64,000 nucleotides of DNA, taken from the NCBI RefSeq assembly GCF_014202275.1, contig NZ_JACHGF010000005.1, positions 186,001 through 250,000 of the forward strand. Direction: 5' to 3'. This DNA is from Rhabdobacter roseus (GTDB taxonomy: Bacteria; Bacteroidota; Bacteroidia; Cytophagales; Spirosomataceae). Positions within the stretch are counted from its first letter, which is position 1. The number at the start of each line of letters is the position of its first letter. Below are positions 12,706 through 20,415 of the stretch, piece by piece. The notes under the pieces were generated by a model. That model had not been told where the DNA came from. It made no database searches and was given only the letters and a program-made list of their open reading frames with translations. Both the position numbers and the translations under genes were made by a program.

Positions 12706-13140
12706 TCAAATACCCGTAATGTATTGTTCCAGAAACTCGATATGGTGGCCCTGCTCCTGGATCATGGCCATCACGATATCCCCAATGCTCAGCACGCCTA
12801 CTACTTTTCCGTCGTCCAGCACGGGCAGGTGGCGGATTTTGCGCTGAGTCATCAGCTGCATACAATCCTGAATGTTCATGTCCAGCGATACGGTGTATAC
12901 GCGGGGCGTCATTACCTCGGCCACGGGGGTACTTTTGGCTTTGCGGCCCTGCACAATGCCCTTCCGGGCGTAGTCACGTTCCGAAAATACGCCCACGAGG
13001 CGCTCGCCGTCCATGACCAGCACGGCCCCAATGCTCTTTTCGGCCAATAGGTGCAGCGTGTCAATGACCGTGGTATGGGGCGTCACCGACCACACTTCCT
13101 GGTTTACTTTGTCCTTTACGAGTTGCTCTACGGTTATCAT
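12706..13140 (-). CDS. Two-CBS-domain protein
   Basis: A 144-residue stand-alone Bateman module. CBS1 (residues 10-65) includes SVTPHTTVIDTLHLLAEKSIGAVLV and ends GVFSERDYARKGI; CBS2 (75-130) includes TPRVYTVSLDMNIQDCMQLM and RHLPVLDDGKVVGVLSIGDIV. Both end in the G(V)xSxxDh pattern used for adenine nucleotide binding. No enzymatic domain is attached, so a nucleotide-sensing or partner-regulating role is likely, with unknown partner. It is a single gene with its own terminator. Confidence 0.92.
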   Translation of the reverse strand: MITVEQLVKDKVNQEVWSVTPHTTVIDTLHLLAEKSIGAVLVMDGERLVGVFSERDYARKGIVQGRKAKSTPVAEVMTPRVYTVSLDMNIQDCMQLMTQRKIRHLPVLDDGKVVGVLSIGDIVMAMIQEQGHHIEFLEQYITGI

Positions 13141-13303: not shown

Positions 13304-13528
13304 ATGTATTTACCCGTCATCCTAGTATCCATAGCGCTTGTTGGCCTGGCCTTTATTTTCATGGGGATTCGGGTACTGCTCGTAAAAAACGGCGAGTTCA
13401 AAGGTACCTGCGCCAATAATAATCCGTTCCTGCAAAAAGAAGGCGTGACCTGCGGCGTCTGTGGTAAGACCGCCGGCGAGCCCTGCGACGAGCAAAAAGA
13501 CACTCAGCCCCTGGTAGCCAGTAGCTAG
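13304..13528 (+). CDS. Small Cys-rich membrane protein, possible NqrM-type maturation factor
   Basis: 74 residues: one N-terminal membrane helix (MYLPVILVSIALVGLAFIF), then FKGTCANNNPFLQKEGVTCGVCGKTAGEPC, a cytoplasmic-side stretch with four Cys, and a short polar tail. Known family: NqrM (DUF539) is a protein of similar size with one helix followed by four Cys, needed for assembling the Fe centre of Na+-NQR. The helix-then-GxC...CxxC...C layout and the position, convergent with and 15 bases from the nqr-apbE operon end, fit that role. Sequence identity to NqrM is not obvious by eye, so this is an inference. Confidence 0.6.
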   Translation: MYLPVILVSIALVGLAFIFMGIRVLLVKNGEFKGTCANNNPFLQKEGVTCGVCGKTAGEPCDEQKDTQPLVASS

Positions 13529-13542
13529 GGTAGTTTTCGCTC

Positions 13543-14574
13543 CTACTCCGGCTCAATCATCCACGGCTCGAAGTCCGGGCTAGCCCGAAAAGTAAGCTGC
13601 CCCGGCGCGTTTTCGTAGATGCACGCAATGGGTAGTTTCAGTTGCTCGGCCAGCGCAAAGGCGCGGTCGGTACCCATCACCAGAAAAGCCGTCGCGAAGG
13701 CATCGGCCGACATGCAGTCGTCGGCCAGGACCGACACGCTCAGCAGCGTGTGCGTAACGGGGTAGCCCGTTTGCGGATCGATGGAGTGGCTGTAGCGCTT
13801 GCCGTCGCGCTCGATAAACTTCCGGTAGTTGCCCGAAGTAGCCAGCGATCGGCCGTCGAGCCGGACCACGGCCTGGAGCGGCCGCCCCGGCGTCTCGCCC
13901 GCCACGGGCTTGTCGATTCCGACGCGCCATACTTCGCCGCGCTCGTTGCGCCCCTGGGCACGTACCTCACCGCCTACTTCTACCAGAAAGTGCCTAACGC
14001 CCTTTTCTATCAGGAAATCGGCCAGGACATCCACCGTGTAACCCTGCGCAATGGCGTTGAAATCGACCTCCATGCGGGGGTCATCAAAAACCACGCGCCC
14101 TGCTACCACACGGGCTTTGAGATACCCTACCTGCTGCCGCAGGCTGTCTACCTGGGACGGCTCGGGCGGAGCGGACTGCTTTTTAAAACTAAAGCCCCAG
14201 GCGCGCACCAGCGGAGCCACGGTGGCGTCGAAAGCGCCGTTGGTCAGCTGTGAGATCTCCTGCGAACGCCGGAATACGGCCAAAAAGTGGGCGTCGGGAA
14301 GTACCCCTGGCTCGTGGTTATTGATCCGGCGAATCACCGACGTGCTGTCCCAGAGCGACATGCTACGGTCAAGTACCCGGAAGAGGCTGTCGATGCTCCC
14401 CGAGAAATCCCGGCCCAGGGAGTCTTTATACGTAATATGAAACGTAGTACCCTGCGCGTCGCCTTCGAGGTAGTTGTAGGATGACGCAGGGGCTTTTTTT
14501 TGACAGGTGCTTAGCCCAAGTACCCCTACTACTACCCAAAGTACCCCCTTCAGCGCCCTAACTACCAAAGTCAT
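13543..14574 (-). CDS. apbE: FAD:protein FMN transferase
   Basis: 343 residues from ATG 14574, which overlaps the nqrF stop by 17 bases; a more upstream ATG (14631) lies further inside nqrF and would spoil the lipoprotein signal (VLWVVVGVLGLSTCQKK). ApbE attaches FMN through a phosphodiester to Thr of NqrB and NqrC in the periplasm. Visible family signatures are GTTFHITYKDS near the N terminus, MEVDFNAIAQGYTVDVLADFL, VGGEVRAQG and HSIDPQTGYPV, the Mg/FAD site. Its place as the last gene of the nqr operon matches its job. Confidence 0.95.
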   Translation of the reverse strand: MTLVVRALKGVLWVVVGVLGLSTCQKKAPASSYNYLEGDAQGTTFHITYKDSLGRDFSGSIDSLFRVLDRSMSLWDSTSVIRRINNHEPGVLPDAHFLAVFRRSQEISQLTNGAFDATVAPLVRAWGFSFKKQSAPPEPSQVDSLRQQVGYLKARVVAGRVVFDDPRMEVDFNAIAQGYTVDVLADFLIEKGVRHFLVEVGGEVRAQGRNERGEVWRVGIDKPVAGETPGRPLQAVVRLDGRSLATSGNYRKFIERDGKRYSHSIDPQTGYPVTHTLLSVSVLADDCMSADAFATAFLVMGTDRAFALAEQLKLPIACIYENAPGQLTFRASPDFEPWMIEPE

Positions 14575-15808
14575 CAAAGGCAATGTTTTCGCGCGGTACG
14601 CCCAGGTTGTCCAGCATTTTTTGCACGGCATCCAGCATCGGCGGCGGGCCGCAGAGGTAGTACTCGATCTCCTCGGGTTCGGGGTGCTGGTCGAGGTAGT
14701 TGTCCAGTACTACCTGGTGAATGAAGCCCTTGTAGCCGTCCCAGTTGTCTTCGGGCAGGGGCTCGGACAGCGCTATGTGGAATTTGAAGTTCGGGAATTC
14801 TTCCTCGATCTTCCGGAAGTCTTCTTCGTAGAAAATCTCCCGCTTGCTGCGCGCGCCGTACCAGTAGGATACTTTGCGGTCGGTTTTGAGGGTATGGAAT
14901 AAATGGAAAATGTGCGAGCGCAGCGGTGCCATCCCGGCTCCTCCGCCGATGTACACCATTTCGCGTTCGGTTTCTTTAATGTGAAACTCGCCAAACGGCC
15001 CGCTGATCGTGACTTTGTCGCCCGGTTTACGCGAAAACACGTAGGACGAACTAATTCCCGGCGACACATCCTTGAAGGCGTTCTTCTCGCGGTCCCAGGG
15101 GGGCGTAGCCAGCCGGATGTTCAGCATGATGATGTTGCCTTCGGCTGGGTGATTGGCCATGGAGTACGCCCGAAACACCGACTCGTCCACGTCCAGCCGC
15201 AGGCCCCAGATGTTAAATTTATCGTAGTCGTCCTTGAAGGTAGGTGTAATGTCGTAGAGATCTTCCTGGAAGCTGATGGACGTAACCGGAATATCGAGCT
15301 GAATGTAGTCACCTGATTTGAACTTGAGGTTTTCGCCCTCGGGTAGTTTCACCACAAATTCCTTGATGAAAGTGGATACGTTATCGTTGGACACGACCTC
15401 GCACTCCCATTTTTTTACGCCAAATACTTCATCGGGCACTCTGATCTCCATGTCTTCCTTCACCTTCACCTGGCACGCCAGCCGTACCTTGTCGGCTACT
15501 TCGCGGCGGTTGAGGTGGTTGGTTTCGGTAGAAAGTACCTCGCCGCCGCCCTCCATGATGTGGCACTTGCACATGGCGCAGGTACCCCCGCCGCCACAGG
15601 CCGAGGCCAGGAAGATGTCGTGCGCCGACAGCGTAGACAGCAGCGAATTACCCGGCTTCACCACCAGGGGCTCGTCCACGTTGCCGTTGATAACCAGCTG
15701 CACGTCGTTCTGCGGGAGGAGCTTGGCTTTGGCTACGATGATGAGCGCCACCAAAAAAAGAATAACGAGAATGAATATAATGACACTGCTTGTGAGTACA
15801 GGGAGCAT
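14558..15808 (-). CDS. nqrF: Na+-translocating NADH:quinone reductase subunit F
   Basis: A 416-residue electron-input subunit. An N-terminal helix (MLPVLTSSVIIFILVILFLV) anchors it; the plant-type ferredoxin domain has Cys in ACGGGGTCAMCKC and a later RLACQVKV for the [2Fe-2S] cluster. The FAD domain shows RAYSMANHPAE and the NADH domain shows YIGGGAGMAPLRS, YGARSKREIFY and YYLCGPPPMLDAV. Length is normal (about 405-420). It oxidises NADH at the cytoplasmic face and passes electrons to the NqrD/E cluster. Confidence 0.97.
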   Translation of the reverse strand: MLPVLTSSVIIFILVILFLVALIIVAKAKLLPQNDVQLVINGNVDEPLVVKPGNSLLSTLSAHDIFLASACGGGGTCAMCKCHIMEGGGEVLSTETNHLNRREVADKVRLACQVKVKEDMEIRVPDEVFGVKKWECEVVSNDNVSTFIKEFVVKLPEGENLKFKSGDYIQLDIPVTSISFQEDLYDITPTFKDDYDKFNIWGLRLDVDESVFRAYSMANHPAEGNIIMLNIRLATPPWDREKNAFKDVSPGISSSYVFSRKPGDKVTISGPFGEFHIKETEREMVYIGGGAGMAPLRSHIFHLFHTLKTDRKVSYWYGARSKREIFYEEDFRKIEEEFPNFKFHIALSEPLPEDNWDGYKGFIHQVVLDNYLDQHPEPEEIEYYLCGPPPMLDAVQKMLDNLGVPRENIAFDDFGS

Positions 15809-15820
15809 AGTTCCGAGAAT

Positions 15821-16435
15821 TTAAAGTTGGATTCCTGAGAAACTTAAAAACGCCAGGGCCATCAGTCCGGTGATGATCATCGCAATGCCCAGCCCCTGTA
15901 GCGGTGCCGGTATGTTGGAGTAGCGCAGCCGCTCACGAATGGAAGCCAGGAGCACAATGGCCAGAAAGAACCCAATGCCCGAGCCGAGCGAAAACACGGT
16001 TGTTTCGGCCATGTTATATTCTCTTTCCTGCATGAAGAGCGAAGTACCAAGGATGGAGCAGTTGACGGTAATCAACGGCAGGAAGATCCCGAGTGCGCCG
16101 TACAGCGCAGGCAGCGACTTCTCGATGATCATCTCCACGAGCTGCACCGCCCCGGCAATGACCGAGATGAACAGGATGAAGGAAAGAAACGTAAGATCGA
16201 CGCTGGCCAGGGAAGGATGGATAAACGACAACGCCCCTTCCTTCAGCATGTAGTTCATGATGAGGTAGTTGAGCGGGGTTGTCAGGACCATCACGAAGAT
16301 CACGGCCAGGCCTAATCCAAAAGCGGTATTGATTTTTTTGGAGACGGCCAAAAACGAACACATGCCCAGAAAGAAGGCAAAGATCACGTTTTCGACAAAG
16401 ATGGCCTTGATGAGAATACTGATGAGATGTTGCAT
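15821..16435 (-). CDS. nqrE: Na+-translocating NADH:quinone reductase subunit E
   Basis: A 204-residue integral membrane protein with six hydrophobic helices. Two Cys within membrane half-helices, in FLGMCSFLAVSKK and ITVNCSILGTSLFM, are the ligands that together with two from NqrD hold the intramembrane Fe centre. The Vibrio and Haemophilus homologues have the same length and the same VNC motif. It is encoded 12 bases upstream of nqrF. Confidence 0.97.
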   Translation of the reverse strand: MQHLISILIKAIFVENVIFAFFLGMCSFLAVSKKINTAFGLGLAVIFVMVLTTPLNYLIMNYMLKEGALSFIHPSLASVDLTFLSFILFISVIAGAVQLVEMIIEKSLPALYGALGIFLPLITVNCSILGTSLFMQEREYNMAETTVFSLGSGIGFFLAIVLLASIRERLRYSNIPAPLQGLGIAMIITGLMALAFLSFSGIQL

Positions 16436-16468: not shown

Positions 16469-17140
16469 TTAGGAGACATTGTTGAGTTTAGGATTACGGC
16501 TACGCTGTACCCAGATGTACACCCCGATGACAAAAAGAGCCGCCGGTGGAAGTACCATCAGTCCGTTGTTTTCGTAGCCCATGTCGTAGGCCCACTGGGG
16601 CACGAGCTGGATGCCAAACAGGCTGCCCGATCCGAAGAACTCCCGGAAAACCGCCACCACGACCAGGATCAAACCATAACCCGCGGCGTTGCCGATACCG
16701 TCCAGCAGCGAGGGCCAGGGCTTTTGGGCCAGGGCAAAGGCTTCCAGCCGTCCCATCACGATGCAGTTGGTGATGATGAGACCCACAAAAACCGAGAGCT
16801 CCTTGCTGACGTCAAACATGAAAGCTTTCAGAAACTGATCCACTACCGTCACGAGCGTGGCAATGATGATCAGCTGCACGATGATCCGGACCCGGTTTGG
16901 GATGGACTTCCGGATCAGCGACGTGATGAGGTTGGCGAATGCCATCACAAACACCACCCCCAGCGACATGATCATGGCGGGCTTTACCTGCACCGTCACG
17001 GCCAGGGCCGAGCAAATCCCAAGTACCTGTACGGTAATGGGGTTGTTGTCGTCCAGGGGATCTTTGATGGTTTTTATATTTTTCTTGGAAAACAAAGGCT
17101 CTGCCTTTTTTTCCTGCGGGGTTGCGGTTTCCGTACTCAT
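16469..17140 (-). CDS. nqrD: Na+-translocating NADH:quinone reductase subunit D
   Basis: 223 residues from ATG 17140 (MSTETATPQEKK); an in-frame ATG at 17194 would run into nqrC and is unlikely. Six membrane helices follow a polar N-terminal tail. The Cys of VQVLGICSALAVT and of IITNCIVMGRLEAF are the NqrE-matching Fe ligands. It is paralogous to NqrE and encoded immediately upstream of it. Confidence 0.96.
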   Translation of the reverse strand: MSTETATPQEKKAEPLFSKKNIKTIKDPLDDNNPITVQVLGICSALAVTVQVKPAMIMSLGVVFVMAFANLITSLIRKSIPNRVRIIVQLIIIATLVTVVDQFLKAFMFDVSKELSVFVGLIITNCIVMGRLEAFALAQKPWPSLLDGIGNAAGYGLILVVVAVFREFFGSGSLFGIQLVPQWAYDMGYENNGLMVLPPAALFVIGVYIWVQRSRNPKLNNVS

Positions 17141-17145
17141 GATGC

Positions 17146-17853
17146 TTATTCGTTTTTCAGGGTTGAAAAATAGGTATAATAAGGTTCGATGCATCGTTGC
17201 AGCATGGCATCCACGCCGCGCGAGGTGATGGTACCTCCCGAGATGGCATCGACCCGGTGCTCCGCCGGGTAGCGGCCCGCTTCGCCGGGCTTCGTGACCC
17301 GCACCGACACAAATTTCTCCTGTTCATCGAGGAGTTTTTTGCCTTCAAACTGTTGCTGAAAAGCATATTCGGATATTTCGGCACCCAGGCCGGGGGTTTC
17401 GCTTTTGTGATCAAAATTGGCCCCGTAGATGGTATTGAAATCATCCTCCAGCGCCACAAAACCCCAAACCGGCCCCCAGAGACCATTGCCATGGACCGGC
17501 ACCACGTAAAAGGAGCGATCCTTGTCGTCCTTGTAGATATACAGCGGAAGCCGACGTTGCTCGGCGGGCTTCATAACTTCTTTTCGAAGATCCACGTCGG
17601 CGGGTTCCTCACCATCCAGGGATTTGCCTTCGGCACTCACCACCATCTCTTCTACCCGCTCGTTGTAGAGCTTCTCGATGCTCTCGGGGTCATCGGAGCT
17701 GAGGCGGAGCGCCTGCAAAATGTTAGACTTGCGGTCGAGCGCTTCGTTGGCCTGTTGGCGGGGCTTGAGGCTAACGGCCATCACCGACAGCAGAAGCGCG
17801 GTAAAGAGCGATATCCCGATGGCGAACAAAAAGGTATATTGGTTGCTATGCAC
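17146..17853 (-). CDS. nqrC: Na+-translocating NADH:quinone reductase subunit C
   Basis: A 235-residue subunit with one N-terminal helix (FLFAIGISLFTALLLSVMAV) and a periplasmic FMN-binding domain. The covalent-flavin motif is DAISGGTITSRGV near residue 215, where the second Thr or first Thr after SGG is the FMN acceptor of the S-G-A/G-T pattern modified by ApbE. The conserved GLWGPVWGFVAL and GLGAEISE strands are present. Its start overlaps the nqrB stop by 8 bases, so translation is coupled. Confidence 0.96.
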   Translation of the reverse strand: MHSNQYTFLFAIGISLFTALLLSVMAVSLKPRQQANEALDRKSNILQALRLSSDDPESIEKLYNERVEEMVVSAEGKSLDGEEPADVDLRKEVMKPAEQRRLPLYIYKDDKDRSFYVVPVHGNGLWGPVWGFVALEDDFNTIYGANFDHKSETPGLGAEISEYAFQQQFEGKKLLDEQEKFVSVRVTKPGEAGRYPAEHRVDAISGGTITSRGVDAMLQRCIEPYYTYFSTLKNE

Positions 17854-19003
17854 GGCTCATTCGTTTTTTGATGTGTTGTTGAATTACCAGATGATCAATC
17901 AGCGGAGCCAGAACGTTCATAAACAGGATACTGAGCATCATACCTTCCGGATAGGCCGGATTGAAGACGCGCAGTACTACCGTAAAGGCTCCAATGAGCA
18001 ACCCATAAATGTACTTCCCGGTCTGGGTATGGGTAGCCGTAACGGGATCGGTAGCCATGTAAACGGCCCCGAAGGCAAATCCACCCATGATGAGGTGGTA
18101 GTAAGCCGGGGTATGCATGGCGTGCAACGGGACGTCCGCCGGAGCGAGGACATTCATGAACAGGCCCATGAGGTACCCCCCGGCAAAAACGGTGAGGACA
18201 ATGCGCCAGCTTCCCACGCCGGTCACGATCAGGATCAGCGCGCCGATCAGGCACGCCAGGGTACTCGTCTCGCCGATGGAGCCCTGAATAGTACCCAAAA
18301 ACATATCGCGGGCGGAGTCCATTTCCAGAAAATTTTCGTCGAAGATGGCCAGGTTGGTAGCGCCCGAATACGCATCGACCACCGCCCGGCCCGGCTCCTG
18401 CGACAGGTCCGTCCAGATCTCGCCGGACATGTAAGCCGGAAACGCAAAAAACAAAAAGGCGCGGGCCAGCAGCGCCGGGTTCATGAAGTTCATGCCCGTA
18501 CCGCCAAAAATCTCCTTGCCCAGCAGGGTACAGAAAATAGCGCCCAACGCCACCATCCAGAGCGGAATCGTAACCGGCACAATGAGCGGAATCAGCAGTC
18601 CGGTGACCAGGTACCCCTCACTGACGGGGTGCTTGCGGAGCACCGCGAATACAAATTCTACCCCCAAACCCGCCGCGTAAGAAACGATGATGATGGGAAG
18701 TACCTTCCAGAAGCCAAAGAGGAAATTATCCAGCAGGCTCACTTCCATGCCGTAGGCCCGGTAGTGTTGGAAGCCCACGTTCCACATGCCAAAAAGCAGG
18801 GTAGGTACCAGGGCGATGATGACCGTCATCATCGTACGTTTCAGGTCCATGGCGTCCCGAATATGCACACCGTGGGAGGTGGTGGTGCCGGGCACAAAAA
18901 GAAACGTTTCGAAGGCATCAAACAGATAGTGGAATTTTTCAAAGCGTCCTCCCTTGCCAAAATTAGGTTTCACTGAATCAACAGTACGTCGAATCCATTT
19001 CAC
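17846..19003 (-). CDS. nqrB: Na+-translocating NADH:quinone reductase subunit B
   Basis: A 385-residue membrane subunit, the main Na+ path of the complex. It has a polar N-terminal arm, about ten hydrophobic helices, and the covalent FMN site DAYSGATNLAIF, where the Thr of SGAT carries FMN. The family segments GMNFMNPALLARAFLFFAFP and GGFAFGAVYMATDPVTATHT are also present. Length fits the Bacteroidota form. Confidence 0.97.
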   Translation of the reverse strand: MKWIRRTVDSVKPNFGKGGRFEKFHYLFDAFETFLFVPGTTTSHGVHIRDAMDLKRTMMTVIIALVPTLLFGMWNVGFQHYRAYGMEVSLLDNFLFGFWKVLPIIIVSYAAGLGVEFVFAVLRKHPVSEGYLVTGLLIPLIVPVTIPLWMVALGAIFCTLLGKEIFGGTGMNFMNPALLARAFLFFAFPAYMSGEIWTDLSQEPGRAVVDAYSGATNLAIFDENFLEMDSARDMFLGTIQGSIGETSTLACLIGALILIVTGVGSWRIVLTVFAGGYLMGLFMNVLAPADVPLHAMHTPAYYHLIMGGFAFGAVYMATDPVTATHTQTGKYIYGLLIGAFTVVLRVFNPAYPEGMMLSILFMNVLAPLIDHLVIQQHIKKRMSRA

Positions 19004-19068: not shown

Positions 19069-20415
19069 CTAGGTCTCGGTACGAGCCAGCTCCAGGCCTT
19101 CGGAGATAATGCGCTGCACCTCGATCTTGGAGGTACATATAAATTCGCAAAGCGCAAAGTCCTCCTCCGCCACTTCGTAAATCCCGAGCTGCTCCATCTG
19201 CTCGATGTCCTTGGCCAGAATGGCTTTCAGTAGAACCACCGGCATGATGTTCATGGGAAGTACCTTTTCGTACTGGCCCGTCAGCACAAAGGCTCGTTCT
19301 TCTCCGTGCAGGTTGGTGTCGAGGTCGTAGGTTCTGTTTTTGGCCAGCCACGAGAAGAAGGTCCGCGACAGGCTCAGTTTTTTAAAGCCCGGCAGGAGCC
19401 AGCCCAGAAACTCCGGCTCGTCGCCTTCGGGGATCACCGTCAGCTGGTTGGTGTTAAAGCTCAGGAAGTCTTCGGCAACGGCTTTTTTACCGGATAAAAC
19501 GTTGCCCTGTATGATCCGGCATTTCTCGCCGGTAAGCTGGTCGTTGAGGATGTCCTGGAGCGGCTGGCCCGTCTGCAAGCGGTAGTACTGCGGCTGCTTG
19601 ACGCAACTACCCGTCAAGGCCACGATGCGGTCGGCGCGGTAGCGGCCCTCGCGAAACAAGCGCCCGATGATGAGCAGGTCCTGTGGATGAATGTACCAGA
19701 CGATGTCATCCTTGCGGATGGGGTCTATGTGGTGGATCTGGATGCCCACGTTACCCGCCGGATGCGGCCCGCTTATTTTATGGATGTGTACCTCAGGTAG
19801 CTGCGTCCATACGTCGGAGGTATCATCCGCCCGCACGCCCAGGTGTACATTTTGGCACAGTGCGCGCAATATCTCGAGGCCAGCCTTGAAGCTCTCGGGC
19901 TCCTGCGAGCAAACAAAGGCCAGGTCGGGGGCCAAAGGGGATGAATCAAAGCAGGAAACAAAAATCGCCTTGGGCTGGTCGGCGGTGTTGGCTATGATGG
20001 AAAACGGCCTTTGGCGGAAGTACGACCAGCAGCCGCTTTCAATAAGTATATCCAGGATTTTCTCGCGATCCAGGTTGGTAGTGGGTTTTTCCAGGAAAGT
20101 CAGGTACCTGGTTTCTTTCTGATCCGGCAGAATCCTCACCTCCATGATCCGGCGTTTCTCACCCCGTACGATCTCGGTCACTTCACCGCTGACCGGCGAA
20201 GGAATGCGGAGGTTGGGGTGGTTTCGATCAAAGAACAGAGGGCTACCTGCCTGCACCTCGTCGCCCGTTTCCACGAGTAGCTTGGGAAAGAAAAGCGGAA
20301 AGTCAGGGGGACGAATCGCAATGATATTCGAGAGGGGAAGATCTGTAAGCGTACTGGTTGCTGAACCTACCAATTTGATATCGTAGCCTCGGCGTATTGA
20401 GATCTGTTTAGTCAT
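19069..20415 (-). CDS. nqrA: Na+-translocating NADH:quinone reductase subunit A
   Basis: A 448-residue peripheral subunit and first gene of the operon. It starts MTKQISIRRGYDIKLVG and shows the RnfC/NqrA barrel-sandwich segment PLFFDRNHPNLRIPSPVSGEV, then GSCVKQPQYYR and the typical C-terminal EEDFALCEFICTSKIEVQ. NqrA stabilises the quinone site formed with NqrB. The 183 bases upstream are AT-rich and probably hold the operon promoter, but no exact TAnnTTTG box was found there. Confidence 0.97.
   Translation of the reverse strand: MTKQISIRRGYDIKLVGSATSTLTDLPLSNIIAIRPPDFPLFFPKLLVETGDEVQAGSPLFFDRNHPNLRIPSPVSGEVTEIVRGEKRRIMEVRILPDQKETRYLTFLEKPTTNLDREKILDILIESGCWSYFRQRPFSIIANTADQPKAIFVSCFDSSPLAPDLAFVCSQEPESFKAGLEILRALCQNVHLGVRADDTSDVWTQLPEVHIHKISGPHPAGNVGIQIHHIDPIRKDDIVWYIHPQDLLIIGRLFREGRYRADRIVALTGSCVKQPQYYRLQTGQPLQDILNDQLTGEKCRIIQGNVLSGKKAVAEDFLSFNTNQLTVIPEGDEPEFLGWLLPGFKKLSLSRTFFSWLAKNRTYDLDTNLHGEERAFVLTGQYEKVLPMNIMPVVLLKAILAKDIEQMEQLGIYEVAEEDFALCEFICTSKIEVQRIISEGLELARTET

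Follow-up and report, generated by a model that had tools for sequence, protein, structure and literature searches.

A small four-cysteine membrane protein encoded beside nqr-apbE: a candidate NqrM-type maturation factor of Bacteroidota NQR

A gene for a small membrane protein with four cysteines, located in the window (the whole stretch of DNA that was analysed, 64,000 nucleotides), probably encodes an NqrM-type iron or iron-sulphur maturation factor of the Bacteroidota NQR. A helper role in the insertion of iron into NQR is probable because the protein family occurs almost only where NQR occurs; the protein would then be a divergent counterpart of proteobacterial NqrM. Among gene-bearing genomes, nqrE was found over cut-off in 17/17 of the window's own family, 45/46 of a phylum sample and 143/146 of family f7, so that the co-occurrence with nqr in Bacteroidota predicted by an earlier note on this DNA holds strongly. 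The same searches revealed one near-complete genome that carries the gene although no nqr was found in it, and two further protein variants, one in family f16 and one in Bacteroidales, all of which are considered below.

The open reading frame encodes 74 amino acids with no internal stop (Table 1), and its translation is MYLPVILVSIALVGLAFIFMGIRVLLVKNGEFKGTCANNNPFLQKEGVTCGVCGKTAGEPCDEQKDTQPLVASS. The cysteines, at positions 36, 50, 53 and 61, are arranged as GTC-x13-CxxCG-x6-C. AlphaFold predicted a single long helix spanning residues 3-27, with block-mean pLDDT values of 92, 95 and 80 over residues 1-30. Outside the helix the protein was poorly determined (mean pLDDT 73.9, pTM 0.41) and the model of the cysteine part is weak. 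Basic residues lie at or behind the helix end (R23, K28 and K33) and, under the positive-inside rule, their placement suggests a cytoplasmic C-terminus. Translation and predicted helix together uphold the description given in the earlier note of a 74-residue protein with one helix and four cysteines. A search of solved structures with the protein returned three weak matches only (E 0.11-0.42), and a scan for promoters and terminators at the gene detected one promoter-like and one terminator-like site, approximately as many as in shuffled sequences.

The small gene is convergent with nqrA-F-apbE. Its position on the opposite strand, also proposed in the earlier note, was confirmed with apbE, nqrF, nqrE and nqrD assigned by family models; the spacing to apbE required correction, as the two stop codons are separated by 14 bases (13529-13542) rather than 15. 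NqrE and NqrD are described as each carrying part of an intramembrane iron site (PMC6209661). On its other side, the small gene is divergent from a gene encoding a two-CBS-domain protein, an arrangement seen in 15/17 own-family loci, including four with non-adjacent nqr. A CBS gene is present also in some Rhodobacterales nqr/apbE/nqrM loci, and the Leisingera CBS protein shares 32% identity (E=6e-22) with the two-CBS-domain protein of the window.

Table 1. Coordinates of features in the window and of related proteins in other loci (locus prefix given where outside the window).
Feature	Position	Strand	Basis or remark
Candidate NqrM-type NQR maturation factor, small membrane protein	13304..13528	+	Open frame, conserved family, nqrE co-occurrence
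Predicted transmembrane helix, codons 3-27	13310..13384	+	AlphaFold
Four conserved Cys codons (C36, C50, C53, C61)	13409..13486	+	Alignments
Two-CBS-domain protein, divergent from small gene	12706..13140	-	Pfam CBS E=9e-26
apbE, FMN transferase	13543..14631	-	Pfam ApbE E=5.2e-83; start unrefined, overlaps nqrF as listed
nqrF	14558..15808	-	TIGR01941 615.5 bits, cut-off 295
nqrE	15821..16435	-	TIGR01940 293.3 bits, cut-off 247.55
nqrD	16469..17194	-	TIGR01939 297.9 bits, cut-off 244.85
nqrC	17146..17781	-	Position and tblastn, 10/10 other nqr loci; start unrefined
nqrB	17846..18850	-	Position and tblastn, 10/10 other nqr loci; ORF from first ATG, start unrefined
nqrA	19069..20415	-	Matches site in L210 that Parabacteroides NqrA also matches
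CCGGGxC protein	L202:3649-3861	-	f16 locus
CCGGGxC protein	L203:12831-13058	+	f16 locus
CCGGGxC protein	L204:11563-11778	+	f16 locus
CCGGGxC protein	L205:5534-5740	-	f16 locus
CCGGGxC protein	L206:11030-11233	+	f16 locus
One-Cys homologue	L192:1501-1734		A2 HMM
One-Cys homologue	L193:1501-1734		A2 HMM
One-Cys homologue	L231:3941-4159		A2 HMM
One-Cys homologue	L232:3944-4177		A2 HMM

Protein searches matched the family in 17/61 genomes of the window's own family, the window's genome included. The other 16 proteins are 43-64% identical to the 74-residue protein and share 13 invariant columns with it; a chance open reading frame was rejected because these homologues align as a conserved family with all four cysteines invariant. 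A profile of the own-family proteins (A1) detected further members in a phylum sample of 296 genomes, and 30 family sequences were aligned (A2). The four cysteine columns are invariant in 17/17 and 30/30 aligned proteins, and a loose cysteine pattern, drawn up after viewing the alignment, fits 100/100 distinct proteins of A1, A2 and A6 (CxxC in 99, CxC in one), counts to be read with the collection scan itself having sought FxGTC and with one-cysteine homologues standing outside all three sets. Four cysteines were also present in 29/29 loci read from the phylum sample, for which 30/46 loci had been fetched and L054, with an unresolved reading frame, was left out.

Scanning 84,980 species genomes with A2 yielded 590 relatives. 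The best 80 of these 590 were examined and are apparently all from Bacteroidota (Cytophagales, Cyclobacteriaceae, Flavobacteriales, Saprospiraceae and others); since the scan used a single FxGTC-based pattern and the best 80 of 590, it supports no inference on other phyla. After L145 and duplicates were left out, 78 were kept, 69 of which are in A6. Among 30 members scanned, no convincing Pfam or NCBIfam model was identified. That the family resides chiefly on mobile DNA was rejected, the plasmid collection having given no match. One stretch of the viral contigs fitted the family pattern, yet was no relative.

Within the window's own family of 61 genomes, the 17 with nqrE over cut-off are identical to the 17 that bear the gene (Fisher p=3e-14, relatedness ignored). 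One incomplete genome (G034, 63% complete) has nqrE just below cut-off at a contig end, plus nqrB, and the small gene was not found in it. Across the phylum sample, where the gene profile matched 46/296 genomes and nqrE exceeded its cut-off in 54/296, 45 genomes had both, one the gene only, nine nqrE only and 241 neither (Fisher p=6e-43, relatedness again ignored). The single gene-only genome (G151) is dubious: its match (E=6e-4) contains an internal stop, and A2 gives E=0.2 at another place. Two of the 45 double-positive genomes (G289 and G297) carry a divergent one-cysteine homologue. The gene was present in 0/21 genomes of the 296 with sub-cut-off NqrE matches only, which were read as RNF. 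Family f7 (n=149: 143 with both, three with the gene and no nqrE over cut-off, two with nqrE only, one with neither) is non-discriminating by itself because nearly all of its genomes have both (Fisher p=0.08). Of the three with the gene and no nqrE over cut-off, G494 has nqrF and G463 has nqrB, and thus both of these incomplete genomes bear nqr. Presence of nqr without the small gene was recorded in 9/54 genomes of the phylum sample and 2/145 of f7; the latter two, G409 (80% complete) and G432 (66%), hold nqrE and nqrF, with the small gene not found.

A homologue in a genome without nqr, which the earlier note had named as counting against its reading, does occur once in a near-complete genome. 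This sole clear exception, G485 (99% complete, about 130 contigs), carries the small gene at G485:C50:9382-9582, and searches of it for nqrB, nqrE and nqrF gave nothing over cut-off. On the same 53.4-kb contig, five ORFs at 30.5-37.2 kb match a region near nqr in G448. Beyond these ORFs to the contig end there is no match to G448, and the stretch matched none of four other relatives (E<=1e-25); the contig thus diverges from nqr-bearing G448 ahead of the nqr position. Either an assembly gap or a loss of NQR that left the gene orphaned may account for the pattern.

Comparison with DUF539, the check proposed in the earlier note, had a divided outcome: membership in the Pfam NqrM family PF04400 was not borne out, and comparisons of the full-length profiles speak for distant relatedness. 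PF04400 matched neither the 74-residue protein (E<=10) nor any of 30 family members (E<=1). It had no match in the window's own genome and exceeded its cut-off in 0/296 genomes of the phylum sample; sub-cut-off matches at E<=1 in 98/296 genomes, the best of 21.1 bits (G341), were treated as noise. As controls, the search found NqrM in 3/3 records with annotated nqrM, all three annotated proteins exceeded the cut-off (3/3), and 0/14 control genomes did so. A separate DUF539 gene elsewhere in the genome, which the earlier note had named as refuting its reading, was not found by this search.

For profile comparison, we aligned 12 of 13 NqrM proteins obtained from plasmid-collection records (A3), leaving out the short L186 (54 aa). 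Alignment of A2 with A3 by hhalign gave a probability of 96.1%, E=3.6e-9 and a score of 47.8. This probability alone means little because controls in which the helix was kept reach 95.8%. By score, 100/100 controls with both parts of A3 permuted were lower (maximum 27.6), as were 100/100 in which only the part outside the helix was permuted (maximum 45.9). The helix alone gave 89%, and much of the signal is therefore helix; the cysteine part alone scored 11.5, within the range of its controls (maximum 14.0).

Searched against 7,341 targets, the A2 HMM placed 11/12 NqrM at ranks 3-16 (best E=7e-5) and the twelfth at rank 31. Ranks 1 and 2 were taken by L192 and L193, one-cysteine members of the family, and 8/12 NqrM scored above all 7,329 decoys except these two. 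Before the search, 119 ORFs showing a family-like pattern were taken out of the decoy set, as were all ORFs of NqrM-bearing records; three decoys, ranked 11, 13 and 14, came from loci fetched as weak A2 matches. The thirteenth NqrM, L186, scored 7.9 bits (E=1), giving 11/13 in the top 16 overall, a signal that depends on helix and cysteines in combination. In the reverse search, the NqrM HMM returned a family member first (E=6e-6) and a CCGGG protein second (1.1e-4), with further family members from 0.007 mixed with decoys. Judged from these alignments, the case that the small-protein family and NqrM share descent is fair but not final. An independently evolved small cysteine membrane protein, performing the same NQR iron insertion with descent unrelated to NqrM, would agree with the absence of a PF04400 match in 30/30 members, with L186 at E=1 and with the behaviour of the C-terminal part alone, which gives no signal above permuted controls and ranks the best NqrM only 67th. 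Such an origin is rather unlikely, as the full-length family HMM lifts nearly all NqrM into its top 16, the layout of helix, basic flank and G-[S/T]-C is shared, and CxxC is found in Rhodobacterales NqrM too.

Gene order was compared across loci. The small gene is not beside nqr in 4/17 own-family genomes (G003, G011, G013 and G017), with distances of 1.7 Mb, 0.64 Mb and 14.6 kb and, in G013, placement on separate short contigs; the shared presence of gene and nqr therefore goes beyond mere linkage. An apbE gene lies between the small gene and nqrF in 13/17 own-family loci. When the window (L001) is set aside, apbE and nqrF are convergent beside the small gene in 12/16. Among the best 80 of the 590 loci, with flanks of <=6 kb and many contigs stopping earlier, ApbE was found in the flank of 14 (13 convergent, one codirectional) and NqrF in that of nine (eight convergent, one codirectional). 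A codirectional nqrF-apbE-gene order, the same as in annotated Providencia, was observed in L061 and L160. These arrangements bear on whether the protein is instead an accessory (seventh) subunit or regulator that stays in the Bacteroidota NQR. Co-occurrence alone would look identical for a subunit, and the cysteine cluster could house a redox centre; nonetheless, the small gene frequently lies away from nqr or in the opposite orientation, whereas the structural nqr genes lie together in the loci compared, and the low-confidence tail of the AlphaFold model is, if weakly, more in keeping with a carrier than with a fixed subunit. We consider a subunit improbable. That the protein serves a different membrane enzyme, or a metal pathway, whose ecology simply coincides with that of NQR is very improbable, for although single members among the 30 weakly match FixS (E=0.015), CcoS (0.017) and FeoB_associated (0.099), and weak zinc-ribbon matches extend to PF25144 in 22/30 members (best 7e-4) and PF24623 in 8/30 (best 0.006), both zinc-finger families were rejected for the 74-residue protein with scores under cut-off, and presence of the gene tracks nqr even within genus g23, where G022 and G046 carry gene and nqr and G060 neither.

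Of the nine nqr genomes of the 296 that have no small gene, one is G326 and the other eight belong to family f16. The loci of five f16 genomes were read (those other than G111, G176 and G130), and each holds a small one-helix 'CCGGGxC' protein. In 4/5 loci apbE is immediately upstream of its gene and has the same orientation; in the fifth (L204), it is about 1.1 kb behind nqrF, with no ApbE match. Against the five proteins, the NqrM HMM gave E=1.1e-4 for one and 0.06-0.5 for the other four, and the A2 profile does not find them (E>1 or ranks 26 to 1,356). The f16 protein is probably another NqrM-like variant beyond reach of the Pfam model. Within f17, G326 (L207, G326:C25) alone among the sampled genomes has nqrE over cut-off, and neither the + strand ORFs that follow its nqrF nor the listed top targets of the HMM include an NqrM-like protein. 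Contamination of G326 is 3%, and a foreign contig is possible.

Four homologues from Bacteroidales or near (L192, L193, L231 and L232), two of which fall within the 45 genomes with both gene and nqrE, keep the helix and retain the second cysteine alone, with E values of 5e-9 to 8e-8 against the A2 HMM for 7,341 targets. L192 and L193 are called Bacteroidales-like because the NqrE of G297 is 74% identical to that of Parabacteroides. In Bacteroides finegoldii, apbE lies about 0.7 kb from the gene for the one-cysteine homologue and is convergent with it; in Parabacteroides, no apbE is near. It is possible, if doubtful, that Bacteroidota hold an older set of proteins of their own for NQR iron insertion (GTC, CCGGG and one-cysteine forms) of which proteobacterial NqrM is only one branch, and that the cysteine cluster is dispensable in strict anaerobes. 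If so, the one-cysteine form of Bacteroidales would have shed its presumed iron ligands. The origin of NQR itself has been placed in the Chlorobi/Bacteroidetes group (PMC4014512).

As an NqrM-type maturation factor, the GTC protein is predicted to be anchored in the inner membrane by its single helix, with the C-terminus in the cytoplasm. Its four cysteines (GTC, CxxC and the last Cys) may bind an iron ion or iron-sulphur unit, which would be handed on to the iron site shared by NqrD and NqrE, and the neighbouring ApbE would attach FMN to NQR subunits. A membrane-anchored cytoplasmic carrier with four cysteines fits the job of NqrM, with topology, metal binding and delivery all putative. With NQR in 54/296 genomes of the phylum sample and Pfam NqrM over cut-off in none, the family would fill a gap, and a large family lacking a convincing Pfam or NCBIfam model among the 30 members scanned would gain a name. 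The finding also suggests a gene to co-express for making Bacteroidota NQR in E. coli. No description of a Bacteroidota NqrM was found in the literature searched, which mostly excludes subscription papers, such that a description may exist in print. Only one review treats NqrM together with Bacteroidetes among the matches listed, and the same literature gave nothing that joins Na+-NQR, ApbE and Flavobacteri, or 'membrane or secreted protein' and nqrF.

CcoS/FixS is a small one-helix maturation protein of the cbb3 oxidase; it is weakly matched by one member each among 30, whereas the small-protein family follows nqr. The CCGGG protein resembles the GTC family in its one helix, basic flank, Cys-rich tail and location beside nqr, and differs in its CCGGGxC motif. 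NqrM was reportedly found by Kostyrko et al. in 2016 to be required for NQR assembly, with its first cysteine essential. The size and layout that the earlier note likened to NqrM agree with the NqrM alignment, in which the 12 aligned proteins have about 66-82 aa and one helix, as against 61-83 aa for the small-protein family. Both have an N-terminal helix, a basic flank, then G-[S/T]-C, and four cysteines, and Rhodobacterales NqrM also has CxxC. In contrast, G-S-C-G-G is invariant in 12/12 NqrM, where the small-protein family has G-[T/S]-C-[A/S/G] and, further on, CxxCG (CxC in one of 100). Gene order differs as well: nqrM lies behind apbE in Leisingera and Providencia and directly behind nqrF in Klebsiella, whereas the small-protein gene is convergent with nqr or non-adjacent in most loci read.
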